DNA from: Pseudomonadales bacterium
Lineage (GTDB): Bacteria; Pseudomonadota; Gammaproteobacteria; Pseudomonadales; Azotimanducaceae
Direction of reading: 5' to 3'
Assembly (NCBI GenBank): GCA_028285415.1
Contig: JANQPF010000003.1
Coordinates: 310,001 to 374,000, forward strand
DNA: 64,000 nt
A model generated the notes under the pieces. The model did not search any database, was not told where the DNA came from, and worked only from the letters and a program-made list of their open reading frames with translations. Below are positions 31,197-64,000 of this stretch, piece by piece (positions within the stretch are counted from its first letter, which is position 1; each line of letters begins with the position of its first letter). A program made the position numbers and the translations under genes.

Positions 31197-31427
31197 TCAC
31201 AGATTGAAGTCAGACGGCGGCTGATACTCCCTGGGCAGACGCCCGTAGTTGTTGCGATCCGGTATCAGAAGGCCCGCCTTTGACAAGGCGGCAAACAAGC
31301 TTGCTTCGAATGCCTCCGGCCAGCCGTCACTGGCGGCCGACCAGCACTGCGCGCACACACCAATTCGATAGCCCGGCACGTCCTTGACGGCGGGACCTGC
31401 CAGGCACAGGTAGCAGATGTCAGGCAC
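31197..31427 (-). CDS. Small cysteine-rich (zinc-ribbon-like) protein
   Basis: A 76-residue protein, last gene of the long minus-strand array. MPDICYLCLAG gives a CxxC near the N-terminus and GVCAQCWSAA a second CxxC, a plausible zinc ribbon; the C-terminus is proline- and tyrosine-rich (YGRLPREYQPP). No known family recognised. Overlaps the upstream GFA gene by 8 bp. Confidence 0.6.
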   Translation of the reverse strand: MPDICYLCLAGPAVKDVPGYRIGVCAQCWSAASDGWPEAFEASLFAALSKAGLLIPDRNNYGRLPREYQPPSDFNL

Positions 31428-31782
31428 GCGGCAGCCAGCTCAGACGGGTGTCGTCGTAGACGTCCCGGTCCGGCGGAAACTCGTTGGGATCGTCCAAGCT
31501 GCCCAGGGTCACGTCAACCCACTCCGGGTGAGAGGCGTTGATACAAACGACAGGCGTGCCGCAACCGGTACAGAAATAGCGGGTGCCGTCGGTGGAAGAT
31601 TTCAGGGTTGCCGGCTCACCGCGCGTGTAGCGAAAGTGCGCTTTGTCGACGACCAGCCAGCTGACGAAGGGTGCCGCGCTGGTGCGCCGGCACATCGTGC
31701 AGTGACAGTTGACGGATGCAAGCGGCGCGTCGCTGATCTCATAACCGATGGCGCCGCAAAAGCACCCTCCGGTGGCGGCCAT
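31420..31782 (-). CDS. GFA (glutathione-dependent formaldehyde-activating enzyme-like) zinc protein
   Basis: A 120-residue GFA-family protein. Zinc cysteines are seen in GGCFCGAIGYE, CHCTMCRR and YFCTGCGTP, the standard three clusters. Most GFA proteins are of unknown substrate despite the family name. Start at MAATGGCFCG lies 1 bp after the stop of the upstream small membrane gene. One of three GFA genes in this array. Confidence 0.88.
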   Translation of the reverse strand: MAATGGCFCGAIGYEISDAPLASVNCHCTMCRRTSAAPFVSWLVVDKAHFRYTRGEPATLKSSTDGTRYFCTGCGTPVVCINASHPEWVDVTLGSLDDPNEFPPDRDVYDDTRLSWLPRA

Positions 31783-31783
31783 G

Positions 31784-31969
31784 TCAGCGCTGCTGGCGCA
31801 TCCGGCGGGCAATCAAAGCAATGGCGGCCACCACCAGAATACCTGGAAGCAGGTGCACGGGTTCCGCGAGATAGTGCAATACGCCGCTTACAGCGCCGTG
31901 GCCTTCATGTGCCGCGGCGCTCATGCCGCTGATGAGAAGGGCAGATGCGAGCAGAATGCGTTTTGTCAT
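31784..31969 (-). CDS. Small exported/membrane protein
   Basis: A 61-residue protein with a signal-like N-terminus (MTKRILLASALLISGMSAAAH), a His/Gly segment (HEGHGAVSGVLHY) and a second hydrophobic helix (LLPGILVVAAIALIARRM). HEGH might bind copper or another metal. No family recognised. Coupled to the GFA gene downstream. Confidence 0.55.
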   Translation of the reverse strand: MTKRILLASALLISGMSAAAHEGHGAVSGVLHYLAEPVHLLPGILVVAAIALIARRMRQQR

Positions 31970-32061
31970 GTCAATTTCTTCCAGTTGATCTCAGAAACGG
32001 GAAACGGATTGCGGACAATATAGCCCCGCAGGGGAGCCAGGCGCCAGTACTACGTGTCGGA
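31970..32061 (-). promoter_or_regulatory. Array spacer with hairpin and AT-rich element
   Basis: This gap holds a CTCCCC-TGC-GGGG hairpin and, reading the minus strand, TATATT shortly after it, a possible -10 for the last three genes of the array. No clear -35 was seen. Confidence 0.25.
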
Positions 32062-32442
32062 CTAGCTCAGATTGATCCGAAGATAGGCCCGTCGGTGAAA
32101 CTTGCCGGTCAGCTTTGAGCCGGTGTTGGCAAGCCACATCTGCCAGCCGTACTTCTTCTGCAGTGCCGCCAGGGCGCGCTCAATCTCCGCCGGATCGTCC
32201 ACCACCAACGCCGTGGCGTCCACCCAGTCGCTCGTCAGCGTGCCGTTGAACGTGCAGCAGGCCATACGTGCCTGATTCGAATTCCGCAGCCGCTTGACCT
32301 TACCGGCATCGCTTTCGCTGAAAACCCACAGGCCGTCGTCGACGGCGGCACACCACACCGGCGTCGCCACCATCGCCCCGGACTTGCGGAACGTCGCGAG
32401 GCTCACGTAGGGCGCGTCTGCGAGCTCGTCAAATGTTGTCAT
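32062..32442 (-). CDS. PPOX-class FMN/F420 split-barrel protein
   Basis: A 126-residue pyridoxamine-5-phosphate-oxidase-like protein. YVSLATFRKSGAMVATPVW is the typical strand pair that begins the split barrel, followed by DGLWVFSESDAGKVKRLRN for phosphate binding. Probable FMN- or F420-binding oxidoreductase of unknown substrate. Overlaps the upstream lipoprotein gene by 4 bp (ATGA). Confidence 0.82.
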   Translation of the reverse strand: MTTFDELADAPYVSLATFRKSGAMVATPVWCAAVDDGLWVFSESDAGKVKRLRNSNQARMACCTFNGTLTSDWVDATALVVDDPAEIERALAALQKKYGWQMWLANTGSKLTGKFHRRAYLRINLS

Positions 32443-32633
32443 AGATCCTCTCGCTCCCGTTGATAGTCGCGATACGCTCTTTCGAACTGGGCCGCGCAGG
32501 CGCGGCGCTCATCGGCAACGGTCAACGTTTCGCACTGTGCTTTGCTGCGGCCGAGGTCGCGTCCAAACTCGTAGAGCTGCCGGTCGGAGCAGCCGCCGAA
32601 GAGCACAATGACGACAATGAACAAACGGCTCAC
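32439..32633 (-). CDS. Small lipoprotein
   Basis: A 64-residue protein with a short lipoprotein signal (LFIVVIVLFGGC, lipobox cysteine at residue 15) and a charged helical tail (FERAYRDYQREREDL). No known family. Coupled by 4-bp overlaps to both neighbours. Confidence 0.6.
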   Translation of the reverse strand: MSRLFIVVIVLFGGCSDRQLYEFGRDLGRSKAQCETLTVADERRACAAQFERAYRDYQREREDL

Positions 32634-33016
32634 TGTTCGAGAGCGTGAGGAATCCGCGCCCAGGGTGGTGCGTCCTCGGTAAACACCGTCCGCGTGGGTA
32701 CGAAGTTCGTCGGGTCGTCGAGTGTTCCGGCAGCGACGCTGATGAGATCAATCTGGGTCTCCCCCCAGAGATGGCTGCCGCAGTTCGGGCAGAAGTGACG
32801 GTCCACCTCGCGTCCCGATTCGGCAGCGGTTCGGTAAAAGGACGTGGTGCCGCTCGTGTGCGTGAAATCCGCAGCCGCAACCATCATTCCCGCATAACCG
32901 TCGGTCCCGGCGCGCCGCGTACACAACGAACAGAAACAGTAGAGGGAGAGTACCGGCTCGCCGCTGATCTCGTAGCGCACCTGTCCGCACGCGCAGCCGC
33001 CTGTGATCACCTTCAT
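32630..33016 (-). CDS. GFA family zinc protein
   Basis: A 128-residue GFA protein starting MKVITGGCACGQVRYEISG, with further zinc cysteines in YCFCSLCTRR and HFCPNCGSHLWG. The ATG overlaps the stop of the DUF1330 gene (4 bp), which excludes a longer in-frame extension. It differs markedly from the other two GFA genes in the array, so recent tandem duplication is unlikely. Confidence 0.88.
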   Translation of the reverse strand: MKVITGGCACGQVRYEISGEPVLSLYCFCSLCTRRAGTDGYAGMMVAAADFTHTSGTTSFYRTAAESGREVDRHFCPNCGSHLWGETQIDLISVAAGTLDDPTNFVPTRTVFTEDAPPWARIPHALEQ

Positions 33017-33309
33017 GTTGCAGGCAATCCGTCGATGACCACCACGTTTCCGCTCGATGCGGCCAGGCGATGCTGCAGGATCTCCTGATAGGGACCCGAC
33101 TGATACCACGCGTCCAGATCGGCGCGGCTCGGGAACGACAGAAGCACGGTGCGGGTGAACGCCCAATCGCCTTCCAGCGTCGCCGGGGCTTCGTCCACGG
33201 CGAGGATGGCGCCGTTGTGGGCGCTGAAAATGTCCATGAATCCGGCTTCGTACTGCGCATAGCGCTCGCGGTCGTGAATGTTCAACGTGGCAATAGCGTA
33301 GACCGTCAT
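33013..33309 (-). CDS. DUF1330 family protein
   Basis: A 98-residue dimeric alpha+beta barrel protein of the DUF1330 family: YAIATLNIHDRERYAQYE at the start and GNVVVIDGL at the end, with SFPSRADLDAWYQSGPYQEI between. Function unknown. Overlapping starts and stops on both sides. Confidence 0.85.
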   Translation of the reverse strand: MTVYAIATLNIHDRERYAQYEAGFMDIFSAHNGAILAVDEAPATLEGDWAFTRTVLLSFPSRADLDAWYQSGPYQEILQHRLAASSGNVVVIDGLPAT

Positions 33310-33713
33310 GTTTCCTCCGTACGAGACAGTTCCATCATCCGGGACGCGCTGGTGTCGAAGAGCATGCCGATCCAGGCGTCCCGCCAGCCATATTTTTCCC
33401 GCATCATCCGACGTATGCGTTCGTGACTTTCCGCGGACGTATGCAGCACAAAGTGGTAGCGGCCATCCAGGTTCTGCCCGCTCAGCGTCAGCTCATCTTC
33501 GCCGATCAGATCAACAACCCAGGGATTCTGCGGGTTGCCTGCCTCCAGATACAGCGTGCTGTCCTCTTCGACGAACCAGACGTGTGTCGTCCGGTTTGCC
33601 CCGGCCGCGGATACGGTGTGGACAGTGACGACACCGCTGATTTCGAGCGCAACCGCGGTCACGACGACAAAAGCGACGAGCAGTGAAAACGTTCCGCTGG
33701 CCAGCCGTTTCAC
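33306..33713 (-). CDS. Membrane-anchored split-barrel protein (paralogue of the gene after hemE)
   Basis: A 135-residue protein with one N-terminal transmembrane helix (LLVAFVVVTAVALEISGVV) and a small beta domain ending KYGWRDAWIGMLF. It has the same length and layout as the plus-strand gene just outside the array, from which it differs in most positions. Probable FMN/F420-type split-barrel; function unknown. 1 bp downstream of the M48 peptidase gene. Confidence 0.7.
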   Translation of the reverse strand: MKRLASGTFSLLVAFVVVTAVALEISGVVTVHTVSAAGANRTTHVWFVEEDSTLYLEAGNPQNPWVVDLIGEDELTLSGQNLDGRYHFVLHTSAESHERIRRMMREKYGWRDAWIGMLFDTSASRMMELSRTEET

Positions 33714-33714
33714 A

Positions 33715-34914
33715 TCAGTCGAGCTCCGTTTCCGCCTCCAGGGTTTTCTCGACGAACAGCGGCGGTACTTCCAGGGAGTGTGCTATTTCGCAGAGCGTGT
33801 CCCGTTCCGCGCCGGTGCTATGGCCATCTGCGCGTGACATCATGCAGAGGTCGCGAATGATCTGCATGCGCTTGGGTATGGAAGTCATCGCCTTGACCTG
33901 CTTGATGCGCGCCGGCACTTCGGACTTGAGCTGCTCGATATCGAGTTTTCTGGTGAACGTGGCTTCGCCAAAAAATTGTTCAAACACTTTGATCTCCTCG
34001 TCGGAGATTCCCCGGCTTGCGTCGGCAACGGCAATGGCTGCGGCAAAAAGCAGCCGTCGCATGGCCTCGGCAATGTCCGTTTTGCCTTCGAGGTAGCTCG
34101 GCTCCATCAGGCTCATGATGCCCTCGACGCCGAGGTCGAGCTCGTCAATGTCCATACCGTCCGGGACGATGAGCTCGGACTCGTGGAAAATTTTCAGCGC
34201 TTTGACGCGTAGCGGACTGAAAGGGTGCGTCAAAAACCAGTCCTCTGTCGGCGCGCCCTGGCCGGGCTGGGCGTCTTCCAGCTGCATCTCGTCCACCTGG
34301 GCGAGGAACTCCGCAACGGAGAAATCGGCGTATTGTCCGGTCAGGCCGCTCGCCAGCTTGAAGAGCGCGTGTGCCACCGATTCCAGATCCTGAGCGCAGT
34401 AGGCGCCGGCCCGGTCCGCCGAAATTTCCGCATAACGCGACCAGCTCGTGAGCGTCAGAGCCAGGCGGGGATTCGGCCGGTGCTGACCGCGCATGATGTA
34501 ACCGATCGGAATGTCGTGATGCCCGAACAGGTGGTGGCCGAGCTCGTGGCCCATGACAAAACGTATCTCTTCTTCGGTGAACGCCTCCAGAAGGGCAGAG
34601 CTGAACATGATGAACAGGCGCCCCGCTTCGGGTTTCACGCAGGCGGCGTTGTAGCTCGGGCTCGGAAACACGTAGAGCTCGAGGGGTATGTCCATGGACA
34701 GCTGTTCGCGGCACGCCTCGGCCGTTTTGTGCAGTTCCGCGGCCATGGTGGGACTCAGCCTCACGGAGGTGGACAGCAGCCGACGGCGCACACCGAGGTT
34801 GCCTTTCTCTTCGTGTCTCGCGATCTGTTCGTTGACTCTTCTGACATCCTGGTCTGTCAGCAGCTGGTCGAACAGTTCCTTGTCATGCTGGTTGCGCAGC
34901 CGCTGTGGGTCCAT
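33715..34914 (-). CDS. M48 family metallopeptidase with C-terminal TerB-like domain
   Basis: A 399-residue zinc peptidase. HELGH (123-127) and Glu163 in YAEISADRAG form the metal site. There are no membrane segments, unlike HtpX. The C-terminal 110 residues are helical and resemble TerB (RADGHSTGAERDTLCEIAHSL). One of the largest proteins of the array. M48 plus TerB-like fusions are known in marine bacteria but without assigned function. Confidence 0.85.
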   Translation of the reverse strand: MDPQRLRNQHDKELFDQLLTDQDVRRVNEQIARHEEKGNLGVRRRLLSTSVRLSPTMAAELHKTAEACREQLSMDIPLELYVFPSPSYNAACVKPEAGRLFIMFSSALLEAFTEEEIRFVMGHELGHHLFGHHDIPIGYIMRGQHRPNPRLALTLTSWSRYAEISADRAGAYCAQDLESVAHALFKLASGLTGQYADFSVAEFLAQVDEMQLEDAQPGQGAPTEDWFLTHPFSPLRVKALKIFHESELIVPDGMDIDELDLGVEGIMSLMEPSYLEGKTDIAEAMRRLLFAAAIAVADASRGISDEEIKVFEQFFGEATFTRKLDIEQLKSEVPARIKQVKAMTSIPKRMQIIRDLCMMSRADGHSTGAERDTLCEIAHSLEVPPLFVEKTLEAETELD

Positions 34915-34918
34915 GAGC

Positions 34919-35344
34919 TTATCCTGTCAGGTGATTGAGGGTCGCACGGAAAATCATGAACCACAGCGCTGCGGACGCGGCAAAGTAGATCCAGAAACGC
35001 ACGATGACGACGTTGACGGTGCAGTGCACGGCGCTGTGGGCAACCCGCAGCGCGGTGAAGAGCCACGCGGCGCCGAGGTACACGCTGTCCACCTGTCCGG
35101 TGACGTGCAGGTACAGACACATGGCGTAAAACAGCACCGGCATCTCGAACAGGTTCTTGAGATTGTCCGAGGGATTGGAGACTTCCGGCGGCTGCAGCTC
35201 GGCAAACCGCGCGGATCTCAGTTCATCGGGACCGAACTCGTTCTGCGTAATGAATGGGATACGTTTGGCATACATGTAAACCCACACCACAAAGGTGAGG
35301 ATGAACATGGTGAACATGGGCGCAAATATGGCGTGGTCCTGCAA
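34919..35344 (-). CDS. MAPEG family membrane protein
   Basis: A 141-residue four-helix membrane protein. NPSDNLKNLFEMPVLFYA and ALRVAHSAVHCTVNVVIVR are the MAPEG signatures (eicosanoid/glutathione metabolism family). Bacterial members are of unknown substrate, some with glutathione transferase activity. 4 bp upstream of the M48 gene. Confidence 0.85.
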   Translation of the reverse strand: MQDHAIFAPMFTMFILTFVVWVYMYAKRIPFITQNEFGPDELRSARFAELQPPEVSNPSDNLKNLFEMPVLFYAMCLYLHVTGQVDSVYLGAAWLFTALRVAHSAVHCTVNVVIVRFWIYFAASAALWFMIFRATLNHLTG

Positions 35345-35407
35345 CGTGACTCTCCCCCGTCAACGCTCCCTAGTGTACCCGCCTGCCTCGCGGCTGCCAC
35401 CTGGGTC

Positions 35408-35956
35408 TTAGGCCACCGGTCGCCGGAGCCTGAAGGTGAGTTCGTGGATCACCTTGCCGTCGCAGGTGCTTTCCTCAGTGGTCTCGAGGGTCATACCGAG
35501 ACGCTCCAGCAGCCGTGCTGAAGGCTTGTTGCGGGCGTCGGTGATGCCCTCGATGACGTCGGCGGCGGTCGTTTCCCACAGCCAGCCGATGAGCGCGCCG
35601 AGGGCTTCCGAGGCAAGCCCGCGTCCGTGATGGTCGTGGCTCAGCGTCACTCCGAGCTCAATTGTGCGTCCGGTGGCGTCGAGATGGACGCCAATGTCGC
35701 CGATCAGGCGCATGTCCGCATCGGCGATACCCAGCTGATGCCAGCTGCCCGGCTGGAAGAGCTCGATGTGCTGATGCTCACGCAGGAATTCCAGCGCCGC
35801 TGCGTCGTCGGTGACTGACCAACCCTGATAACGGGCCAGCGTCGGGTTGGTCCGGTAGTGCTGAAAGTCCTCGAGATCAGCGGTACTGAGTCGCCGCAAG
35901 TACAATCGCGGCGTCTGCAACAGAATCGCGGACACGTCAGCGCCGTGCGATCGCAT
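35408..35956 (-). CDS. GNAT acetyltransferase, RimJ/RimL type
   Basis: A 182-residue N-acetyltransferase. TPRLYLRRLSTADLEDFQHY is the RimJ/RimL-like start; HDHHGRGLASEALGALIGW holds the acetyl-CoA loop. The ATG overlaps the stop of the dehydrogenase gene by 20 bp; a GTG only 1 bp after that stop is an equally possible start. Acetyl acceptor unknown. Confidence 0.85.
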   Translation of the reverse strand: MRSHGADVSAILLQTPRLYLRRLSTADLEDFQHYRTNPTLARYQGWSVTDDAAALEFLREHQHIELFQPGSWHQLGIADADMRLIGDIGVHLDATGRTIELGVTLSHDHHGRGLASEALGALIGWLWETTAADVIEGITDARNKPSARLLERLGMTLETTEESTCDGKVIHELTFRLRRPVA

Positions 35957-37469
35957 CACCCGCGGCCGGGGCCATGCGCACGATGCGCCCACCGGTCGAG
36001 TGTTCCAGCAGCATGTAGACGTTGCCGTCGGGTCCGGTTTCGATGTCGCGAATACGGCCGAATTCCTTCAGCAGGATTTCCTGGTGCACCACCTGCTCAC
36101 CCTCGACGACAAACCGGTAGAGCATAGTGGCTTTCAGGGAACCCGCCAGGATGTTGTGCTGCCAGCCTGGGAAGCTTGCGCCGTCGTAGAAGATGAAGCT
36201 GGAAATCGCCGGCGACGGCGTCAGGTCCACCACGGGCTGTTCGATGTCTTCGAGGTCGAATTCGATGCCGAGTTGAACGCCGTAGTTTACCGGGCTGCCG
36301 TCGTAGTTGACCCCTTTGGAATAGAGCGGCCATCCGTAATTCCGCCCCGGTTTCAGCAGATTCAGCTCGTCTCCGCCCCGGGGCCCCATCTCGGTACTCC
36401 ACAGCAGGCCGGTTACCGGGTCGATCTCCAGGCCCTGTGGACTGCGATGGCCGTACGTCCAGGTTGTTGGGACAACGTCGGGCTGACCGTGAAAAGGATT
36501 GTCTGTGGGAATCGAGCCGTCGTCGCGCACTCGATGAATTTTGCCGTAAGGCAGGCTCAGATCCTGGATGCCCTCGTAGTTACTGGGACCTTTCATGCCG
36601 ATGCTGATGAAGAGCGCCCCTTCACCGTCGAAACACAGACGCCCGCCTGCGGCCATGTCCGGCGTGGGCGTGTAGTTCGCATGGTCGGTCTGCCAGATCA
36701 CCTCGTCGTCAACCCATGCGCCCTCGTGAATGCGGCCGCGGATGACTCTGTTCATGGTCGACGGCATGAACGAGTCGCAGCTTTCGCAGAGGTCGCCGTA
36801 GTGCAGGTAAATCCAGCCGTTGTTCTCGTAGTCCGGATGCAGCGCCACGTCCATGAGCCAGCCGACGCCGTACTCGAGCTGACCCACCTCGAAGGTGCTG
36901 TCACGCGCCTGGGGGGTGCCGGTGATGTATTCCGACAAGGTGCCGTCCGCTTCGACGATGCGAAGTCCCTTGGTCTTTTCGGTCACCAGGAAGCGTCCGT
37001 CCGGCAGCGGGGCGAGCGAAAAAGGCAGGGCATCGATGTCCGTGGCAACGGTTTCAATGTGGAAGGTATGCCTCTCGGACTCGATATCACCCTCGGGTAT
37101 CACGAGTTCGTTGTATACCTTGAAGTCGGTGAATAGCCGGTCGACCCGGCGTTCAGCGACAAAAATTGCCAGGCGCTGCACGGTGCCGTCGTCGAGACTT
37201 TTGCCCCAGGCAGGCATGCCGCGCTGCGGGAATCCGGTTGTGATGCTTTGCATGATTTCGGCGACGGAGTCGCCGTGGGTCAGCTCTCGTCCAACTAGGG
37301 CGGGGCCGAGTGCCGTGCCTTCGAGCGCTTCGCCATGACAGGTAGCACACTGGGCGTTGTATTCACCGAGGAACGGATCTTCATACGTCGCAATAAAAAT
37401 GGCAGCGACAACACCGACTACGACAATGATGCCAACGATGCCCAGGAGCACATACTTCAGAATTGTCAT
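35937..37469 (-). CDS. PQQ-dependent sugar dehydrogenase fused to cytochrome c
   Basis: A 510-residue exported protein. A membrane anchor (7-27) is followed by a c-type cytochrome domain with CATCHGEAL (haem motif 41-45) and then a glucose/sorbosone dehydrogenase beta-propeller (about 125-500), including THANYTPTPDMAAGG and THRSPQGLEIDPVTG-like blocks (TYGHRSPQGLEID). Probably a periplasmic aldose dehydrogenase passing electrons through its own cytochrome. Largest protein of the array and unusual among its small neighbours. Confidence 0.85.
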   Translation of the reverse strand: MTILKYVLLGIVGIIVVVGVVAAIFIATYEDPFLGEYNAQCATCHGEALEGTALGPALVGRELTHGDSVAEIMQSITTGFPQRGMPAWGKSLDDGTVQRLAIFVAERRVDRLFTDFKVYNELVIPEGDIESERHTFHIETVATDIDALPFSLAPLPDGRFLVTEKTKGLRIVEADGTLSEYITGTPQARDSTFEVGQLEYGVGWLMDVALHPDYENNGWIYLHYGDLCESCDSFMPSTMNRVIRGRIHEGAWVDDEVIWQTDHANYTPTPDMAAGGRLCFDGEGALFISIGMKGPSNYEGIQDLSLPYGKIHRVRDDGSIPTDNPFHGQPDVVPTTWTYGHRSPQGLEIDPVTGLLWSTEMGPRGGDELNLLKPGRNYGWPLYSKGVNYDGSPVNYGVQLGIEFDLEDIEQPVVDLTPSPAISSFIFYDGASFPGWQHNILAGSLKATMLYRFVVEGEQVVHQEILLKEFGRIRDIETGPDGNVYMLLEHSTGGRIVRMAPAAGDAIARR

Positions 37470-37522
37470 GAACCTCTCCGCCCGATGACCTCACCGCAGA
37501 GCATAGCGCGAGGTAAATCGCC

Positions 37523-37825
37523 TTACGAGCGGCTGACCGCAACCCGGTAGGGGAAAAGCTTTGCGTGCATGACGCCGTCGGCAACCGCCGGATCGTCTGC
37601 CATCAGACGCTCGGCAGCCGCGTCGTCTTCCGCTTCGAAGATCACAATCCCGAACGTGTCGCGGTCCGCCGTCTGCGTGCGCCCGGCAAGGATGACGCCG
37701 CCGTGCGCTGCCTGGGACTCGAGGTACGCGACGTGTCGTGCCAGCGTCTCCGCCTCTGCTTCGGTGGGCCCCTGGGTGAGCATTTCCAGCCGCGTTGGCT
37801 GAATGCGATACAGGTATTGCGGCAT
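37523..37825 (-). CDS. YciI-like protein
   Basis: A 100-residue protein of the YciI/ferredoxin-like fold: MPQYLYRIQPTRLEML start, HVAYLESQAAHGGVILAGRT in the middle and PFxVADGVM-like end (DDPAVADGVMHAKLFPYRV). His and Asp in these motifs are the presumed active site. Start at MPQYLY is preferred by family N-termini. Function unknown. Confidence 0.82.
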   Translation of the reverse strand: MPQYLYRIQPTRLEMLTQGPTEAEAETLARHVAYLESQAAHGGVILAGRTQTADRDTFGIVIFEAEDDAAAERLMADDPAVADGVMHAKLFPYRVAVSRS

Positions 37826-37857
37826 GAGAATTCTTTCCTTCGGGGTTAACAAAGACG

Positions 37858-38259
37858 CTAACCGGCGGGCTCCAGGAGGTCCCAGCGGTTGCCGTAGCAG
37901 TCCTCGAAAACCGCAACGGTACCATAGGGTTCGTGCCTTGGCGCCTCGAGAAACGTCACCCCGCGCGCGGTGAAAGCCGCATGGTCCCGGGCAAAGTTGT
38001 CGGTGTGCAGAAACAGAAACACCCGTCCGCCACTCTGACGGCCGATCGCCTGGCGCTGCATGCTGTCGTCAGCCTGCGCAAGCAGCAGCCTGCTGGCGCC
38101 GTTCCCGGGCGGGGAGACGATAACCCACCTTTTCCCGCCACCGAGGTTCGTGTCTTCCAAAAGCTCAAATCCCAGCGCGTCCCTGTAGTATTCGATGGCC
38201 TTGTCGTAGTCATCGACCAGGAGGCTGACCAACGCAATGTGCTGCCGTACCCCGGTCAC
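37858..38259 (-). CDS. VOC/glyoxalase family protein
   Basis: A 133-residue vicinal-oxygen-chelate protein: HIALVSLLVDDYDKAIEYY then GVTFLEAPRHEPYGTVAVFE and a final DCYGNRWDLLEP, the standard bleomycin-resistance/glyoxalase layout. The GTG start overlaps the upstream stop (GTGA). One of five VOC genes in the array. Confidence 0.87.
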   Translation of the reverse strand: MTGVRQHIALVSLLVDDYDKAIEYYRDALGFELLEDTNLGGGKRWVIVSPPGNGASRLLLAQADDSMQRQAIGRQSGGRVFLFLHTDNFARDHAAFTARGVTFLEAPRHEPYGTVAVFEDCYGNRWDLLEPAG

Positions 38260-56132: not shown

Positions 56133-56236
56133 CCCAGTCCCCAATACGCTTCACGTGCCCGAAGGCTAGTTCGGGAAATGTGAACACACTCTGAATCGGC
56201 CGGAGCCGTTGTTCGAGAAGCCGAGGAGCTTACGGT

Positions 56237-57135: not shown

Positions 57136-57182
57136 GATCTATATCTCCTGGAATCCCGACGTTTTGCCAGGTGTTTTGCATC

Positions 57183-57623
57183 TCAATGTGGCCACTGAAC
57201 CTCCATGTGCTTGCCGAAATGAGTTGCGCGCCACTGCCCTCTGAGCGCTCTGGCGCGTTGCAGGATCGAATCTGCGACGTGGTCGAGCTCCGGTTGGTCC
57301 GGGAGCACACGCGCGAGCACCGCATGGAAGTCCGCCGCGGAGGCATCGTTCTTGATGAGCGTCTGGATTGGTCCCGCCAACGCCTCAGCCTTTGCCAGCT
57401 CGCCTTCGAGTTCGCCCGGGTCGTTCAAAGCGCGGCCATCCGCTACGTTCCCCCAGAACCCTCGCAGGAGCGGCAGCTCGATTTCGATTGCGAGATGGGC
57501 AAAGTCGTGGAAAAGAAAGCTGCGTGAAGCCAACGCGTTCGAGTCCATGCTTCCGTCCGACCGGATAACGGTTACACGATGCTCTGAGTTCGAGATTTTG
57601 TGAAACTGGATGCGCACAAACAC
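57183..57623 (-). CDS. Hypothetical protein (RSDGSxDS family)
   Basis: A 146-residue protein with VTVIRSDGSMDSNAL and FHDFAHLAIEIEL then ELEGELAKAEALAGPIQTL. The gene at 62518 shares this plan (RSDGSADS, PHDLIHWIVE, ESELAKTEKLVLLIQ), so the two are paralogues. No known function; HD..H might bind a metal. Confidence 0.72.
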   Translation of the reverse strand: MFVRIQFHKISNSEHRVTVIRSDGSMDSNALASRSFLFHDFAHLAIEIELPLLRGFWGNVADGRALNDPGELEGELAKAEALAGPIQTLIKNDASAADFHAVLARVLPDQPELDHVADSILQRARALRGQWRATHFGKHMEVQWPH

Positions 57624-57630
57624 ACGCCCT

Positions 57631-57845
57631 TTATTGCGTTGGATTGTTTGTTGTCAGTGATCCTGTGGATGCACGCAACGCCCCGAAGCTGACCAGCGTG
57701 ATCCATGCGTAGATTAGCGCGACAACAACACGTTTCGCGAGTGTAGTGGGGTCAACGGAAGGTGTGAGTAGGAGATGAAGGCAGCTAGATGCCAGGCGGC
57801 CGCCGCGAGGGCGAGGTAAGAGAAGTATTGGCTCGAACCGACCAT
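57631..57845 (-). pseudogene. Possible frameshifted two-helix membrane protein
   Basis: The first frame begins at an ATG with SD GGGAG and reads MVGSSQYFSYLALAAAAWHL then a further AAFISYSH; a second frame, shifted by one base near 57765, continues LTPSVDPTTLAKRVVVALIY AWITLVSFGAL to a TAA next to the following gene. Joining them would give an ordinary small two-helix protein. It may be a sequencing error, a recently broken gene or chance. Confidence 0.3.
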
Positions 57846-57868
57846 GGGGACTTCTCCCGCTTGATTCC

Positions 57869-58213
57869 CTACACCGACCCTGAGATGAACCCCGGATCAA
57901 AGACGTTCTGAAACAGTCTCGGCAGAATACCGCTGAACATGCCGAACCGGTACAGAATGATGAACCAGGTGATGCCAATGACTGAGATCCGCGTGATCAG
58001 TTCATCGAAGTGGGTGAGTTGCTGAATCGTCCAACCCACCAATCGATCCCTGTAGACAATTGCCAGAATGAGGGCAATGTGGACGAGAACGCCTGCAATG
58101 GGATTGCTGCCAATGACAGCCCCCACTCGGGTGTAGCCCAGCGAAAATTGCGCGTAGGAGACATAGAGAAGCAACGCCCCTGCGACGGCAACCTCGAAAG
58201 CTCTGACAGTCAT
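57869..58213 (-). CDS. Four-helix small membrane protein
   Basis: A 114-residue protein with hydrophobic stretches at ALLLYVSYAQFSL, IAGVLVHIALILAIVY and ISVIGITWFIILYRFGMFSG. Family not recognised. Its start is 6 bp from a GTTAAGC, but that is probably fortuitous. Confidence 0.6.
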   Translation of the reverse strand: MTVRAFEVAVAGALLLYVSYAQFSLGYTRVGAVIGSNPIAGVLVHIALILAIVYRDRLVGWTIQQLTHFDELITRISVIGITWFIILYRFGMFSGILPRLFQNVFDPGFISGSV

Positions 58214-58300
58214 CCGGCCGCTTAACGCTGTATGACGGGCGGCGGGAGCCGCATGGAGAGGCGGTTGCCGACGGGTTTGCTCCGCATGTTTCTCAGTCGG

Positions 58301-58681
58301 CTACGAAAAGATGTGCTGAGTGCGCCACACAATCGACGGAGAATCCCCGTCTTCGCTCGCGATGACATAGATGTCGCGTCCTCTCTCGCGATAGCGATTA
58401 TCGTCGAGCTGATACGCCACCTCGAAGTCCATATGACAGATGCTGAAGGCCTCATGTTCGATGGTCTTCAGCCGGGTAACCTCAAAGTGCTCCAACGCGC
58501 CGGATTCACCGAATTCCCGATAGCTCTCGACCAGGTCTGCAACGCCGGTTATCGGCTCTTCACTCCCACTGAGCTCCATGACCACGTCGCGTGCAAAATA
58601 GTCGTACAGCGAGTCGTAGTCCCCGGTGAGCCAGGCTGCGTTCAAGTTCTCGATGAACGTCTCGACTTCAGAGTGATCCAT
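58301..58681 (-). CDS. SnoaL-like/DUF4440 protein
   Basis: A 126-residue NTF2-fold protein: FIENLNAAWLTGDYDSLYDY, ARDVVMELSGSEEPITG, and IVWRTQHIF at the end. SnoaL-like folds are used for small-molecule binding or isomerisation. Function unknown. Confidence 0.83.
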   Translation of the reverse strand: MDHSEVETFIENLNAAWLTGDYDSLYDYFARDVVMELSGSEEPITGVADLVESYREFGESGALEHFEVTRLKTIEHEAFSICHMDFEVAYQLDDNRYRERGRDIYVIASEDGDSPSIVWRTQHIFS

Positions 58682-58682
58682 T

Positions 58683-58823
58683 TCAGCTGCCTGCCGTCAT
58701 AATTTGCGACGGATATCCCGCCTGGCAAGACGCAGCAACCGCCTCGCCGTCGCCGGCACGACGCAGCGAGTGCAGGGTGTTTTTGCTGTCGGCTTCAACG
58801 GCGAGCGTTGGAATAAGATTCAT
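58683..58823 (-). CDS. Possible 46-residue mini-gene
   Basis: In the 249-bp spacer, the largest of the array, an ATG frame MNLIPTLAVEADSKNTLHSL ends TGA one base before the next gene. It looks like others that bridge gaps but has no family. The remaining spacer to 58930 shows nothing clear. Confidence 0.35.
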   Translation of the reverse strand: MNLIPTLAVEADSKNTLHSLRRAGDGEAVAASCQAGYPSQIMTAGS

Positions 58824-58930
58824 TGCACCGGCTACTGATGGTCCGGGTGCAGACTATCAGTACATACGGGTGCCGCCTATGAAGCGGTTCGCGTTTGTCG
58901 TGCTTCGTCGCCTCAAAGACGCTTCGTTAA

Positions 58931-59572
58931 CTACACGGGCAGCCCATGGCGTTCCAGGATCGAAGTGAACGAATCCAAGCCATGGTCCACGTGGTACAGC
59001 GCGCCTGCTATCCCGGTACTTTCCGCGGCTGCAACGTTCTGCGCGTGGTCATCAACAAAAAGGATGTTGTCGGGATTCGCCGGTAGCTGCTTCAGGATCG
59101 CGAGGAAGAAATCGGGTGAAGGCTTTGCCACACCAAGTTCAAAGGAAAAGAAGAGCTGATCGAAGAGAGGTGCGTATCCCAGATGATCAGCCATGATGCT
59201 TGCGCGATGGGCTTGCTGGTTCGTCGCCAGACAAACTCGAATGCCCTTTGCGCGGAGGCTGGAAACGATATCCAACATACCCGGTGAGGGTTCTATCCGA
59301 GTCCAGAGCTCGAGCGCGTCGGCCAGGACAACATCAACTGCCCAAGTGCGCAGAACCCGTTCCAGCGCGTCGGGAAAGTGGGCTTCCCCGGTAAGACACG
59401 GCTTTTCGGACGCGAATACGTCTTCGAGAAAGCGCTCGCTTTGCGCCGCGTCCGGGCAGAGCGCCCGGAGATCCTCGAGAAAACCGCTGGAGGAGATTTG
59501 TATGACCCCGTCCGCGTCGAGCAGCAGCGTCTGGATGTCCGGGGCGTGTTGAGGCACGTTGGATCGCCTCAT
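58931..59572 (-). CDS. HAD-like hydrolase
   Basis: A 213-residue HAD superfamily protein (subfamily IA-like): LLLDADGVIQ (motif I, nucleophile Asp), CLATNQQAHRA (motif II), GVAKPSPDFF (Lys motif III) and FVDDHAQNVAAA (motif IV). Likely a phosphatase of small phosphate esters. Overlaps the GNAT stop by 4 bp. Confidence 0.88.
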   Translation of the reverse strand: MRRSNVPQHAPDIQTLLLDADGVIQISSSGFLEDLRALCPDAAQSERFLEDVFASEKPCLTGEAHFPDALERVLRTWAVDVVLADALELWTRIEPSPGMLDIVSSLRAKGIRVCLATNQQAHRASIMADHLGYAPLFDQLFFSFELGVAKPSPDFFLAILKQLPANPDNILFVDDHAQNVAAAESTGIAGALYHVDHGLDSFTSILERHGLPV

Positions 59573-60036
59573 GCCTGAGACAAAGAAAGATACAGCGCCA
59601 CTTCGCCCTCTTCCATCCCGCGCTCAACAAAGCCCATCTTCTGGTAGAGGTTCAGCGCGGTGTGATTCTCGGGCAGCGTTGAAATGCGCACGGTGGCGAC
59701 CGCAGGTTGCAGCACTGCGATGAATTCGAGTGATTTCGCCAGCAGACGTTTGCCGTGCCCCTGTCCCTGATGGTGCTGGTCGATCATCAGTCTGACGATA
59801 TTCACGCATTGCTGGTCGGATTCGACATAAGGAAAGAGCAACACGTATCCGACGAACGCTTCGCCCCAACAGGCGATACGAAAGATGGCTTCTTTGTGGA
59901 CGTAGGCATCTGCGAGCGATTTCTGGACCGTCGCTACCAGCGATTCCTGATCTTTCCTGACGGAAAGTCGGCTGGCGCGTTCGTAGTTATCCGGTGTGAT
60001 TGGTCTGAGTTCGAATGGTCTGGTATCAGGGTTCAT
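59569..60036 (-). CDS. GNAT acetyltransferase
   Basis: A 155-residue GNAT related to diamine (spermidine) N-acetyltransferases: ELRPITPDNYERASRLSVRK, MIDQHHQGQGHGKRLLAKSL, and HTALNLYQKMGFVERG. Substrate could be a polyamine but this is only by analogy. Confidence 0.86.
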   Translation of the reverse strand: MNPDTRPFELRPITPDNYERASRLSVRKDQESLVATVQKSLADAYVHKEAIFRIACWGEAFVGYVLLFPYVESDQQCVNIVRLMIDQHHQGQGHGKRLLAKSLEFIAVLQPAVATVRISTLPENHTALNLYQKMGFVERGMEEGEVALYLSLSQA

Positions 60037-60057
60037 CTCGAGTGGGCAACCGACGCG

Positions 60058-60369
60058 TCAGTCGGGCTGCTCTTCCTCTATCTCATAGTGACGTGCCACG
60101 TTGCTCGTCACCGCACCCCAACGAGACGTTTTTACCCGGGCCTGATGCAGCTCGAAAGCCGCGCGGCTTTCGAACGTTTCGTTGACGTCAAATCGGTGCG
60201 GGTCGGTTTCGGACTGGCGAACCTGAAACGAAATGCAGCCGGGTTCGTTGCGGGTGAGATCAATGTGGTTCGGTAACTCAGACCGCACAACGTCGAGATC
60301 CCCCTCCGGAACGATGATGAATCCTGAGAGCTTGACCTTCGGCATGTGGACGCGTTTGTCAGTTGCCAT
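60058..60369 (-). CDS. ABM (antibiotic biosynthesis monooxygenase-like) protein
   Basis: A 103-residue dimeric ferredoxin-like protein: KLSGFIIVPEGDLDVVRSEL, NEPGCISFQVRQSETDPHRF and VNETFESRAAFELHQARV. Members oxidise quinones or are of unknown function. Start at MATDKR or the later MPKVK. Confidence 0.87.
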   Translation of the reverse strand: MATDKRVHMPKVKLSGFIIVPEGDLDVVRSELPNHIDLTRNEPGCISFQVRQSETDPHRFDVNETFESRAAFELHQARVKTSRWGAVTSNVARHYEIEEEQPD

Positions 60370-60403
60370 AGATCTTCGCTTAGCAGCCGCTCCCGGAGAC
60401 GAG

Positions 60404-60943
60404 CTACGGGTTGATGATGATTGGTGTGCCATCTGGAACCAGATCCCAGATTTCCTGCATCTCAGTGTTGCTGTTGACGGCGATGCATCCGTCAGTCCAA
60501 TCCCGGCCGCGAAACCAGCGCCCGAATAAGCCGAAGCCATTGGGCAGGCCGTGAATGAAAATGGCGCCTCCCGGGGATACACCGCGCTTGCGCGCCTGCG
60601 CCTCGTCAGCGGCGTTGGGATAGGAGATGTGTATGGAGAGGTGGTATTTACTCTTTGGGTTTCTCCAGTTCAGCACGTAGCGGCCTTCCGGCGTTTTCTC
60701 GTCACCTTCGATCGTTTTGTGCCCTTCTGGCGAGTCGCCCAACGAAACGTCATACGACCTGATGACCTGGTTCTCGCTTTCCAGATACATCTTACGCTCC
60801 GACTTCTCCACCCGGACCGTGTCGATGATCGAAGCCAGAGTTGTATTCGCGCAGACGCACAGCACGATGGCGGCAACGAAGCGCGTTTGTCTGAGGCTTG
60901 AGATTCCCTTGCAACCGTTGCGCGTTTGCCACGTCCGCATCAT
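60404..60943 (-). CDS. L,D-transpeptidase (ErfK/YbiS type), exported
   Basis: A 179-residue protein with a signal peptide (VAAIVLCVCANTTLASI) and YkuD domain: SIHISYPNAADEAQARKRG, IFIHGLPNGF and RDWTDGCIAVNS with the nucleophile Cys. Forms 3-3 peptidoglycan links or attaches lipoproteins; HGxxx and SxGC-like spacing is intact. Confidence 0.92.
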   Translation of the reverse strand: MMRTWQTRNGCKGISSLRQTRFVAAIVLCVCANTTLASIIDTVRVEKSERKMYLESENQVIRSYDVSLGDSPEGHKTIEGDEKTPEGRYVLNWRNPKSKYHLSIHISYPNAADEAQARKRGVSPGGAIFIHGLPNGFGLFGRWFRGRDWTDGCIAVNSNTEMQEIWDLVPDGTPIIINP

Positions 60944-61315
60944 CTATTCACCCGCGCTCTGGAACAGTTCGATAACGTTGCCAGAGGGGTCGAGGCACAA
61001 AATCTGCTGACCGCCCGGGCCGGAAACGATGTCGTTTCTGAATTGGACACCGTTGGCGCGGAGCGTGTCGACGGTTTGTTCCAGACTCTCTACTGGCAGA
61101 ACGAATCTCGACCATCCCCCGGGGATGGGCTGAGTGCCATCGGGCATGGGTTTGGATGCCGAGGCCGCCGGGCCGGCGAGCCACAGCTGAATGTCGCCGG
61201 ACTCGAGAATCGCCATCGCAGGACCGAACTGTTGCTTGAGTTCAAATCCAAGTTGCTGTGTGTAGAACGCGATAGAGAGAGCAACGTCGTTCACAAGATA
61301 TCTGATTTGGGCCAT
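60944..61315 (-). CDS. VOC/glyoxalase family protein
   Basis: A 123-residue VOC protein: MAQIRYLVNDVALSIAFYTQ, QLWLAGPAASASKPMP and ILCLDPSGNVIELFQS, close to glyoxalase/bleomycin-resistance proteins. The stop directly precedes the L,D-transpeptidase ATG. Confidence 0.88.
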   Translation of the reverse strand: MAQIRYLVNDVALSIAFYTQQLGFELKQQFGPAMAILESGDIQLWLAGPAASASKPMPDGTQPIPGGWSRFVLPVESLEQTVDTLRANGVQFRNDIVSGPGGQQILCLDPSGNVIELFQSAGE

Positions 61316-61372
61316 GGTCAATCCTGGGTCGTGTTTCCCGGCGGTGCCGTCTTTCGGACTCAATGCCAGCCT

Positions 61373-61657
61373 TCAATGCAGGCTTTCTCCAGTGATGAGC
61401 GACGCGACAATGAACAACCAGATCAGCGCAAACAGTGATGTCGCCAGAAAGGAGATCACCCCGATCCAAGTGTGCTTTGCGTTGGCGGCCAGGTAAAGGA
61501 ACAGTAACAGCAGGAATGTGGGGATGACGACGATGAGGAGGGCGGCAACCCATTCGTGAGCGCGAACGTGGCCGGAAGCGAATCCCATTGCGCAGGCCAC
61601 AATGGTGATGAAAATCACGGCAATGGCAGGCGTTCTGATTTTCCTTATCTTCTGCAT
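61373..61657 (-). CDS. Three-helix small membrane protein
   Basis: A 94-residue protein with hydrophobic helices at PAIAVIFITIVACAMGFASG, WVAALLIVVIPTFLLLLFLY and VISFLATSLFALIWLFIVAS. No family recognised. Confidence 0.6.
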   Translation of the reverse strand: MQKIRKIRTPAIAVIFITIVACAMGFASGHVRAHEWVAALLIVVIPTFLLLLFLYLAANAKHTWIGVISFLATSLFALIWLFIVASLITGESLH

Positions 61658-61667
61658 CTACCCTCCG

Positions 61668-62153
61668 TCACGCGTCTGTCTTGTACAGGTATCTGGCTGC
61701 AATCCAGATGCCTCCGACGATACCCGCACCCAGACAGACGTAGTGCAGGTTTGCGACCGATATGAGCCCCAACAGCGGGTTGTGATGGGAAAGCGGCGCC
61801 CAGGGCGCCATGTCTGAATGCATGATGCCGTCAACAAGGATGTGGCTGAACGTACCGAGATAGGCACTGATGGCGGATACCCTCCATGAAATCTCCGGCT
61901 TCTGGTAGCCAATCAGCTTCAAAAACGCCTGGCCAATCGGCTTACCCAGCAGCGTCGCGACCAGTCCGATGACAAGGGCGCCAAGCATGGTGTGGGAGGG
62001 GCCATGAAGGGCGGTTGACCCACGAAGTAGCTGAATGAGGGGTTCGAGATCGATCAACACCTGCGATCCGCCGAAAACAACAAAGCTGAAATTGGCCCCG
62101 AGAAAACCTTTGAGCAAAGCGCCTGGGCCCAGATGTACCGGTGTAAATGGCAT
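61668..62153 (-). CDS. Membrane-bound hydrolase-like protein (YbcI/DUF4184-like)
   Basis: A 161-residue membrane protein with scattered His/Asp: MPFTPVHLGPGALLKG, LHGPSHTMLGALVI, and YLGTFSHILVDGIMHSDMAP. The conserved His in these motifs resemble the LexA-regulated YdjM/YbcI hydrolases. Function unknown. Confidence 0.72.
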   Translation of the reverse strand: MPFTPVHLGPGALLKGFLGANFSFVVFGGSQVLIDLEPLIQLLRGSTALHGPSHTMLGALVIGLVATLLGKPIGQAFLKLIGYQKPEISWRVSAISAYLGTFSHILVDGIMHSDMAPWAPLSHHNPLLGLISVANLHYVCLGAGIVGGIWIAARYLYKTDA

Positions 62154-62177
62154 TGGCAGGACGCCTAGAACGGCCCG

Positions 62178-62507
62178 TCAGGCGCCATACCGTTCAACCA
62201 TGATGGTTTCCATTGTCGAGTCTTCCGTCCAGAGCCGATGCGGCAGTCCCTTTGGCCATCTTATGTTCTCGCCGGACTTGATAGACAGCTCTTCTTCTCC
62301 AACGGAAGTAAAGCCGGATCCAGCGATGCACAGGACATCGATATCATGAGGCGCGGTGTGCTCATCGATGGTGGCTTTTTCCATGAACCGCAAGTTCGCG
62401 ATCAAAATACCATCTGCATTGAGCAGCACGCGAAAATCAACGTTTGCGCACCCGGGTCTGGGCACGGGTGCCCAATCTGGTTTGGGCTGTTCTTGAATTC
62501 TGGTCAT
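62178..62507 (-). CDS. Cupin domain protein
   Basis: A 109-residue cupin: EKATIDEHTAPHDIDVLCIA and KSGENIRWPKGLPHRLWT give the two motifs. The ATG at MTRIQEQ is chosen by length. Function unknown. Confidence 0.8.
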   Translation of the reverse strand: MTRIQEQPKPDWAPVPRPGCANVDFRVLLNADGILIANLRFMEKATIDEHTAPHDIDVLCIAGSGFTSVGEEELSIKSGENIRWPKGLPHRLWTEDSTMETIMVERYGA

Positions 62508-62517
62508 CGCGTCTGCC

Positions 62518-62991
62518 TCACAAACCGCTCGTCTCGCCGCCTTCGAAAAACTCGAACTCGAGCGTTTCGCCCGCGTGCAGCGCGGCCCAACGCTGCGACT
62601 GCGAGGAGATCTTCTCGCAGATTTGGTCCACGTCCGAGTCTGCGCAAAAGCTCGGGTAGCGCAAGCCATACAGCCCCCGCAGGTGGGATGACGAAGCGTT
62701 CAGTTTCCCCGCTCGGATGTCGTGATCCGTTTGAATGAGGAGCACAAGTTTCTCTGTCTTTGCCAGCTCAGATTCAGGCTCCGCGAGCTCATTGACAGCG
62801 TACTGATCCGTTCCCGCCGCAATCTGTCCGTAGAAGGCGTGTTTCAGATCGAAGTGGTCTTCGACGATCCAGTGAATCAAGTCGTGCGGAATCCCACATG
62901 CCATGGTCGTCAGCCAGGAGTCCGCAGAGCCGTCGCTTCGCGTGATGGTCAGATCCGCTGCCGTGTCTGTTTTTGTGAACGCAAGTTTCAA
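62518..62991 (-). CDS. Hypothetical protein (RSDGSxDS family)
   Basis: A 157-residue protein: LTITRSDGSADSWLTTMACG, GIPHDLIHWIVEDHFDLKHA then EPESELAKTEKLVLLIQTD. Paralogue of the gene at 57183. No known family. Charged, soluble, HD..H motif. Confidence 0.72.
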   Translation of the reverse strand: MKLAFTKTDTAADLTITRSDGSADSWLTTMACGIPHDLIHWIVEDHFDLKHAFYGQIAAGTDQYAVNELAEPESELAKTEKLVLLIQTDHDIRAGKLNASSSHLRGLYGLRYPSFCADSDVDQICEKISSQSQRWAALHAGETLEFEFFEGGETSGL

Positions 62992-63013
62992 GAAGATTTC
63001 CGTGCTGCGAGAA

Positions 63014-63418
63014 TCACTGCGTTGAGCTCGGTGTGTTCACGCTGTCCCGCTGAATATATGCATCGATCACCATCCGTGAGCTCGGCGTTGTTGCTGGAAT
63101 GTCTGAGCAATCGAACCACTCGAGACCAGCACAAAGCGTCGTGTTCCTGTTCGTGATACGACCCGACCATTGGTCGACCACGTAGACATGCAGAACCAAA
63201 TCGGGGGACTCCTCAACGTCGAACGACGATGATGGCATGGGATGCTCGATCCCGAGTTCTTCTCGCAGACTTCGAGAGAGCGCCTGCTCTGGTGTTTCTT
63301 GTGCCAGCAGTTCTGAGCCTGGCAGCGACCACGAGCCGTCGCGACGGCCGGTGTTCTGCCTCTGTCCAAGCAACAGCCTGGCGGAGGCGTCCAGGAGGAT
63401 GGCAGCTACGGTATCCAA
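63014..63418 (-). CDS. NUDIX hydrolase
   Basis: A 134-residue NUDIX protein. The box (residues about 34-56) starts GSELLAQETPEQALSRSLRE and continues with ELGIEHP, matching the consensus except for the first Gly-x5-Glu spacing, which is relaxed. It begins like MutT-type 8-oxo-dGTPases (AAILLDASARLLLGQR). Second NUDIX gene of the array. Confidence 0.87.
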   Translation of the reverse strand: MDTVAAILLDASARLLLGQRQNTGRRDGSWSLPGSELLAQETPEQALSRSLREELGIEHPMPSSSFDVEESPDLVLHVYVVDQWSGRITNRNTTLCAGLEWFDCSDIPATTPSSRMVIDAYIQRDSVNTPSSTQ

Positions 63419-63430
63419 TGGACCATTGCC

Positions 63431-63730
63431 TTAGTCATGATTCAGCAGATTGCTTAGTTTTTCGATGGAGTCCCAGAGCTCAGATTCTGTGTTGCCGCAG
63501 AACGAACCAGTGTGATTGTGACGCCGCCATTCTATATAGAGTGCCATCCGTAGCTGATCGGCATTGGGCTTGGCAGGGAGGTCGGAAATGCCCTGAATCG
63601 GCAGGTCAGGTTCCCGGCATTGGTTCGGGTCGAAAGTACTCGCGAAGTTGATCAGGTCGGCGAGTCGACGCCTTTGGATATCAGGCAGGTCGTCCAGGGT
63701 CAGCTGATCCGATGGAATGTGATTGATCAT
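63431..63730 (-). CDS. Hypothetical protein
   Basis: A 99-residue protein, no family recognised: helical N-terminus LTLDDLPDIQRRRLADLINF and a WRRHNHTGSFCGN segment. Its ATG overlaps the upstream gene stop (ATGA), so the two act together or were acquired as one. Confidence 0.55.
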   Translation of the reverse strand: MINHIPSDQLTLDDLPDIQRRRLADLINFASTFDPNQCREPDLPIQGISDLPAKPNADQLRMALYIEWRRHNHTGSFCGNTESELWDSIEKLSNLLNHD

Positions 63731-64000
63731 CCTGATCTGCGCTCGGCATCGCTCGCAATGACTCGACCCTGGCGTTCGATGCTGGAGAGCGTGGACTCCA
63801 AATCACTGATCTCACCCTCGCTCATAGGCAGTGATGAGGCGGCTTGCAGCAGCGTCTGGATGTCGCCTGCCAACTTTGACAGCGCCCAGCCAAACGGATC
63901 CCCGGCGTCGATGCGAATGAACGGGTCGTTTCGATAGGACCAGGCAAGGTGATAGTGGGGGTCTTTTTCGAAGCAATCGAAGCGCAATACTTCCTCTTCC
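63727..64000 (-). CDS. Hypothetical protein, partial (runs off right edge)
   Basis: The last gene on the minus strand. The frame is open to the window edge (EEEVLRFDCFEKDPHYHLAW), so its start lies outside; a TTG at 63987 is unlikely to be the true start. The sequence resembles a family with the conserved LRFDCF-KDPHYHY and GDPxGW (here GDPFGWALSKL) motifs, of unknown function. Confidence 0.6.
   Translation of the reverse strand, partial: EEEVLRFDCFEKDPHYHLAWSYRNDPFIRIDAGDPFGWALSKLAGDIQTLLQAASSLPMSEGEISDLESTLSSIERQGRVIASDAERRSG

Follow-up and report, generated by a model that had tools for sequence, protein, structure and literature searches.

An attC-less array of small genes beside hemE as the probable aged end of a chromosomal integron

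The DNA analysed here (the window) is a 64,000-nucleotide stretch of a Pseudomonadales bacterium, positions 310001-374000 of a 422,774-bp contig (C24), whose second half, from 31197 to 64000, is a one-strand array of small genes. This array is very probably the distal, aged, attC-less end of a sedentary chromosomal integron lying between hemE and ilvD, since an integron integrase gene (intI) and 57 attC sites are found further along the contig while none scores above background in the window. The original prediction, made from the window, had described a gene-collecting array resembling integron cassettes without attC sites, in agreement with the lack of detectable sites there. It had also proposed a distinct kind of island with no visible collecting mechanism, adding that an integrase or attC sites upstream would make it an integron. 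Once the contig was read further both appeared just outside the window, and the distinct island gives way to an integron.

Extending the analysis along the contig (all positions in window numbering) showed that 64000, previously taken as the right edge, is only the end of the window. The array runs on in one orientation to about 109 kb, where it stops at intI, and the whole locus, 31-109 kb, measures about 78 kb. It is laid out as follows:

29742..30764, plus: hemE (TIGR01464, E 5.9e-113), left chromosomal anchor, at the proposed distal end of the integron
30788..31195, plus: DUF2255 / F420H2-type small protein (Pfam), last gene before the array
31197..64000, minus: window part of the proposed attC-less integron tail, 66 genes called, 65 minus; the tail reaches about 66.3 kb
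66308-79000, minus: transition zone outside the window, eight degraded attC sites of 20-61 bits
79193-108794, minus: attC zone outside the window, 49 attC sites of up to 140 bits
109443-110375, plus: intI, outside the window (TIGR02249, 455 bits, cut-off 265)
110416-112446, minus: acyltransferase-3/SGNH gene (L004:6416-8446), directly downstream of intI
112774: end of the contig
G000:C22:1347-3020: ilvD, at the start of another contig of the window's genome

The reading frame of intI has no internal stop, and the nearest named integrase among the matches listed is that of Pseudoxanthomonas broegbernensis (69%). Array and intI are divergent: intI is on the plus strand, and the minus strand carries 121 of the 125 array genes (66.3-73 kb left out). 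The gap beside intI (109235-109443) leaves space for attI/Pc, and a search allowing up to one mismatch found no LexA box in L004. Repeated sites ending in GTTAGGC occur in the DNA upstream of intI. An attC covariance model, built from 21 aligned sites with a mean column identity of 77%, detects 57 minus-strand sites at E < 0.01, all within 66.3-108.8 kb. Two main length classes are present in alignment A1 (L003 + L004), of about 116 and 134 bp, which differ by an insert of roughly 18 bp holding a short inverted repeat.

With filters off, the best match of this model in 31197-64000 had an E of 0.65, compared with 0.76 in the control region 1-31196. The genes of the 31-66 kb tail are thus not each followed by an attC site, as in a gene cassette, nor does the tail hold the two or more sites of a cluster of attC lacking integrase (CALIN), none being above background. 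A generic structural scan stood out at 94-109 kb alone, with 20 hits for a shuffle mean of 1.5. The two halves of the tail yielded 3 and 2 (maximum of 20 shuffles each, 4 and 2) and the control region 4 (shuffle maximum 4); the scan has a low sensitivity to worn sites, as its mere 4 hits at 78-94 kb indicate. We regard it as highly improbable that the tail carries attC sites of a type unrecognised by the model, in cassettes that are still mobile. Sites do differ between integrons, according to the part of PMC8618304 consulted, and the model is no universal detector: of ten other integrons examined, five (G150, G152, G153, G154, G072) yield no site at E < 0.01. On the other hand, it succeeds in the remaining five (L193 and L195 of G151, L199 of G052, L203 of G156, L204 of G068), the structural scan of both tail halves stays within the shuffle range, and up to 50 kb there is scant room outside genes, median gaps being 1-17 bp.

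Several properties change along the array. The bit scores of the attC sites rise toward intI (rho 0.66, n=57), and do so too without the training sites (rho 0.52, p 0.0013, 36 sites). GC content, 0.62 next to hemE, drops to about 0.50 over 89-107 kb and stands at 0.63 beyond intI; this whole-sequence profile is free of gene-calling bias. GC at third codon positions (GC3) falls with position (rho -0.87, n=121 minus-strand array genes), with successive medians of 0.77, 0.75, 0.74, 0.69, 0.69 and 0.64 through the tail, 0.49-0.53 in the attC zone and 0.75 in the host flank. Median gene spacing is 152 bp in the attC zone, against 1, 17, 16, 68, 47 and 28 bp in successive tail bins (28-68 bp at 50-66 kb). 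The deepest layer combines these features:

31197..44000, minus: deepest layer, where codon use resembles that of the host, GC3 is 0.75-0.77, median gaps measure 1-17 bp and 8 of the 11 four-base overlaps lie

Within the window, the gene caller found 66 array genes, the last crossing the window end; 65 are on the minus strand and 61 encode 60-200 amino acids, bearing out the predicted one-strand array of small genes. The predicted number of about 57 is somewhat low, unless some of the short calls are spurious; the caller itself missed at least one array gene (NUDIX, 63014-63418). In the left flank of 71 kb there are 73 called genes (median 264 amino acids); 43 are plus, and the strand switches 21 times. 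The left edge of the array is as sharp as had been described, with hemE, then the DUF2255-like gene up to 31195 and the array from 31197.

The family counts given earlier were reproduced at Pfam E <= 0.001: 8 GNAT, 5 VOC/glyoxalase, 3 GFA, 2 MAPEG and 2 NUDIX. The several FMN barrels correspond to 3 PNPOx and the four cupins to 3 Cupin_2 matches (one, 62178, under Pfam's own cut-off) plus one DUF1971 gene, which we take to have a cupin fold. A Pfam match at this threshold was obtained for 49 of the 65 scanned genes (the gene crossing the window end being excluded), 45 of them above Pfam's own cut-off, versus at most 27 of 52 genes in the attC zone, a sum of family memberships and hence an over-count. 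More recognised domains in the tail fit the survival of useful genes, although the gene-calling method also affects the contrast. No close paralogues were found among the 67 tail genes of up to 260 amino acids that were compared; tail-versus-tail protein matches (E <= 1e-4) are only 20-36% identical, in line with the near lack of close paralogues first noted. Of the reported overlaps of 3-4 bp, those of exactly 4 bp were recovered in 11 of the 70 adjacent pairs up to 66.3 kb; ten of these lie on the hemE side of 57.2 kb and the other at 63.7 kb. Predicted promoters and terminators in 31197-51000 (4 against 5.1 in shuffles, and 14 against 15.2) show no excess, and are therefore uninformative on operons. 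We found no tandem repeats in the window and no family of dispersed repeats that stands out as recombination sites in 31197-64000.

To place the locus among relatives, 150 genomes of the family were compared. hemE was found in 142 (E <= 1e-50) and ilvD in 126 (E <= 1e-150). Both genes were present in 123 genomes and on one contig in 65; in 59 of these 65 they are convergent and at most 15 kb apart, with a median gap of 1715 bp. This pairing sets aside three weaker second hits, namely part of a hemE in G142 and genes resembling ilvD in G004 and in G115. A close IntI (E <= 1e-30) occurs in 36 of the 150 genomes, the window's own (G000) counted. In G000, hemE, the array and intI are on C24 and ilvD opens C22; the integron appears to fill the hemE-ilvD interval, C24 presumably joining C22 at ilvD across the contig gap. 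The same chromosomal site recurs in relatives, intI lying 653 bp from ilvD in G103 (same genus) and 76 bp from it in G069 (another genus). In G061 (L216, G061:C170) intI is 49 bp from the end of hemE and faces it, which places an integron at the same anchor with its intI at the hemE end. In the remaining intI-bearing genomes intI was not found close to either anchor on a shared contig, and for most of the 36 the site may be a different one.

The hemE side of G103 repeats the succession seen in the window's genome: a minus-strand array, attC-less for about 12 kb, followed by attC sites of 22, 24, 58 and 75 bits before the contig end, while GC goes from 0.53 to 0.46 by 15 kb (0.52 in the last 479 bp). 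In most of the other relatives examined the interval is short and has genes on both strands, and in some a few small genes lie between hemE and ilvD with no integron there. Pooled, the other family intervals hold 85 minus and 76 plus genes, so most relatives' intervals are unlike fossil arrays. This pool leaves out G044, G103, G115, G061 and three intervals under 1 kb, and is an undercount because the caller gave no gene for seven intervals, including G011, where a separate analysis called minus-strand genes, and G018, which has two array-strand homologues. The 10.7-kb interval of L207 (G012:C45) has 11 calls on the minus and 8 on the plus strand; elsewhere on that contig, at about 4.9 kb, lies an intI whose reading frame has no internal stop.

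These comparisons bear on the proposal that a non-integron, attC-free process adds small genes in register, which is the distinct island of the original prediction and to which we give very little credence. The lack of attC sites above background and of standout repeats at 31-64 kb would suit such a process, as would the genes that other family intervals keep on both strands outside any integron. Against it, a complete-looking integron with its intI is joined to the young end of the array, and among the 42 hemE-side intervals compared one-strand arrays of more than 15 kb occur only in G103 and G044, both with attC traces.

We next consider which array genes are shared between genomes. The 42 intervals, 39 of them closed by ilvD, were chosen mainly for length or prior retrieval and are a subset of those existing; the thresholds for counting a gene as shared were 40% identity and 70% coverage. 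In the tail, 16 of 71 genes have a homologue at this locus in another genome, against 1 of 54 in the attC zone (Fisher p 5e-4 for these two) and 0 of 9 at 66.3-73 kb, and all 29 hits to tail genes are on the minus strand. Sharing with G103 and G115, whose arrays were analysed over only 15.5 and 9.4 kb, involves 5 of 9 genes below 35.4 kb and 4 of 62 beyond, a boundary drawn post hoc. Relative to G103, the genes at 33013, 33715, 37523 and 41664 are collinear, while those at 49241 and 60404 are displaced. The relatives examined therefore do not have the same genes in the same order, and the array is not an old stable operon set, the alternative that had been named at the outset.

Nine tail genes were compared with G103 or G115 by codon position (10 comparisons, at least 45% identity and at least 75% coverage), and third positions were the most divergent in 10/10. 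They differ by 53-71% and second positions by 12-33%, the values for hemE being 53-59% and 11-12%. At the level of sequence, this points to purifying selection on the nine genes.

A second long array, in a different genus, is that of G044. Its closed hemE-ilvD interval (31.8 kb) has 47 called genes, 42 of them minus, with a median of 144 amino acids. One attC relic at E < 0.01 lies 1.4 kb from ilvD, and a second site in the same orientation has an E of 0.026; with a single site at E < 0.01 the array does not qualify as a CALIN. No IntI over the cut-off was found in this assembly, which is 89% complete. From hemE, GC3 per 8-kb step is 0.61, 0.62, 0.58 and 0.52 (rho -0.31, p 0.03); in successive thirds the median gap is 52, 60 and 188 bp. 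We interpret G044 as a frozen array of the kind that our model of the tail predicts for an integron after integrase loss; frozen arrays are not the rule.

Alternatively, the tail could be older than the integron and independent of it, an island or operon set of small genes at hemE-ilvD beside which an integron settled later, but we consider this improbable. Such a history would account for the relatives that carry a few small hemE-ilvD genes without an integron, and for the tail having no provable attC remnant. By contrast, orientation is the same across the boundary, GC and spacing change gradually across it, and attC scores fade with no abrupt stop. In addition, the hemE side of G103 shows the same succession, the sole attC relic of G044 at E < 0.01 is at the ilvD end, and the partial reordering of shared genes between genomes fits cassette shuffling.

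The favoured explanation is therefore an integron that has aged from one end. Integron insertion occurs at attI, so that cassettes move outward with age. In the proposed sequence of events, IntI would take up gene cassettes as circles and insert them at the attI end, next to intI at 109 kb, and each incoming cassette would shift the older ones toward hemE with uniform orientation. Far from intI, attC sites would no longer be needed and would mutate and be deleted, leaving the genes between lost sites non-excisable. Deletion of the attC spacers, the route that we infer for their loss, would leave neighbouring genes with almost no spacing or overlapping by 4 bp. At the same time, base composition and codon usage would drift to those of the host, with purifying selection retaining useful genes. 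The tail would thus extend cassette fusion by attC loss through dozens of cassettes. Its genes would formerly have had attC sites, their order would reflect age, with position as a rough guide only, and they are presumably co-transcribed.

Several observations weigh against this explanation. GC3 shows no trend inside the attC zone (rho -0.12, n=51, not significant) and composition shifts only from about 73 kb toward hemE, so the change starts where the attC sites fade. The codon-use contrast is somewhat inflated, tail genes having been called with the host codon bias and attC-zone genes taken as the longest open reading frames. No attC remnant can be proven in 31-66 kb, which leaves the cassette ancestry of the tail genes as an inference; the attC model has the limited reach given above. 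Homologues of tail genes are not enriched in other organisms' integron arrays (9 of 67, against 4 of 35 in the host flank and 3 of 51 in the attC zone). The genes common to the tail and G044 are scattered from 33 to 65 kb, which makes position a loose indicator of age and no strict clock. None of the ten other integrons examined has a long tail like this one, in a comparison weakened by a crude strand measure (0.32-1.00 per 4-kb bin in this tail) and by the 9-60 kb covered in each. Finally, the array next to intI in G103 extends for only about 350 bp up to the contig end.

A broader proposal, which we advance tentatively and with slightly less than even confidence, is that attC loss is a general one-way route by which genes pass permanently from integron to chromosome. 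The hemE-ilvD sites of the family would then form a series, with the integrase-bearing G000 and G103 at one end, the frozen G044 in between and the many nearly empty relatives at the other end; among its members would be 'ghost' arrays invisible to attC-based detection, and the tail would consist of compact, translationally coupled operons enriched for useful enzymes.

The genes of the window array are the following (Pfam; single numbers are the lower coordinate of a gene):

31420..35344, minus: block next to hemE, with GFA 31420-31782, PNPOx 32062-32442, GFA 32630-33016, DUF1330 33013-33309, M48+TerB 33715-34914 and MAPEG 34919-35344
35408..43779, minus: GNAT 35408, GSDH+cytochrome c 35937, YCII 37523, VOC 37858, PNPOx 38256, GNAT 39190, DUF2059 39660, GFA 40186, VOC 40626, L7/L12 C-domain 41030, MAPEG 41664, DUF1801-like 42667 (below cut-off), ExbD 43381, others
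43851..50463, minus: PNPOx 43851, ClpX-type zinc finger 44894, anthrone oxygenase-like 45347, VOC 45845, GNAT 46267, YjbR 46722, DUF1971 47127, AAA 48329, cupin 48903, GNAT 49241, SHOCT 49721, others
50506..54558, minus: GNAT 50506, NUDIX 51653, NIPSNAP 52621, VOC 53468, GNAT 53977, others
54671..55051, plus: BLUF-domain gene (E 2.7e-26)
55065..64000, minus: alpha/beta hydrolase 55065, GNAT 56237, cupin 56752, SnoaL 58301, HAD 58931, GNAT 59569, ABM 60058, YkuD 60404, VOC 60944, cupin-like 62178 (below cut-off), NUDIX 63014, others

In the block next to hemE, 5 of 6 genes have homologues (tblastn, at least 45% identity) downstream of hemE in G115 and/or G103, and the NUDIX gene at 51653 has a 70% identical homologue in the G044 array. 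The YkuD gene has homologues in L099, L096, L207, L208, L209, L079 and L206, that is, in seven other genomes, each time on the ilvD side of hemE and on the array strand, and may mark an ancestral gene of the locus. The DUF2255-like gene of the hemE flank is probably ancestral to the locus, judging from tblastn homologues beside hemE in L081, L084, L087 and L089, relatives without a long array, and in L086. The acyltransferase-3/SGNH gene beside intI has no homologue at E <= 1e-40 among the other loci compared. The BLUF gene, a light sensor, is the sole plus-strand call of the window array. In the left flank, a 6S (SsrS) RNA is found at 6041-6221 on the minus strand (85.7 bits, gathering score 46.4).

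To our knowledge, little is known about the final fate of captured integron cassettes, arrays usually being tracked only while attC sites are visible. Along this locus, fresh, decaying and domesticated genes follow one another on a single piece of DNA. With another genome from the same genus (G103) and a frozen array in another genus (G044) as comparison material, it makes cassette domestication, attC decay and amelioration measurable. It also suggests that integron input to chromosomes is undercounted where detection relies on attC sites.

Vibrio superintegrons are sedentary chromosomal integrons in which small genes and their similar attC sites form a long array of uniform orientation, divergent from intI. 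The locus described here shares this organisation; it differs in its far end, where about 35 kb with 71 called genes lack detectable attC sites, are compacted and have host-like codon use. The insertion of cassettes at attI and their outward displacement with age are described in the part of PMC8618304 consulted. A positional counterpart is found in Xanthomonas, where, in the parts of PMC12444791 covered, intI lies downstream of ilvD, an ancestral site, with progressive loss of activity in some lineages. The same parts give 3 to 29 as the number of attCs in X. campestris and describe, in X. cucurbitae, two genes without recognisable attC downstream of ilvD that are present in other integrons. 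Both systems have intI beside ilvD; those parts report no long attC-less tail or composition gradient in Xanthomonas.

Integron-derived arrays without integrase are also known, as CALINs (clusters of attC lacking integrase, in the consulted part of PMC8618304) and as the attC remnant without intI of Treponema phagedenis (PMC3607928, in part). G044 resembles them, but these elements are recognised by their attC sites. With no detectable site in the tail and almost none in G044, both should escape attC-based detection. The likely process has small-scale precedents in the X. cucurbitae genes just mentioned and in fused cassettes, in which partial or total attC loss joins two cassettes into one unit with polycistronic transcription (PMC4670013, in part); in the fused cassettes it concerns one pair in a mobile class 1 integron, whereas here it would concern dozens of successive genes. 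Among the literature matches listed, which cover subscription journals thinly, we found nothing equivalent on attC-less tails, amelioration or fossils in integrons. Integrons and attC-less cassettes were thus already known, and what is new, within the literature searched, is the length of the tail and its graded decay.

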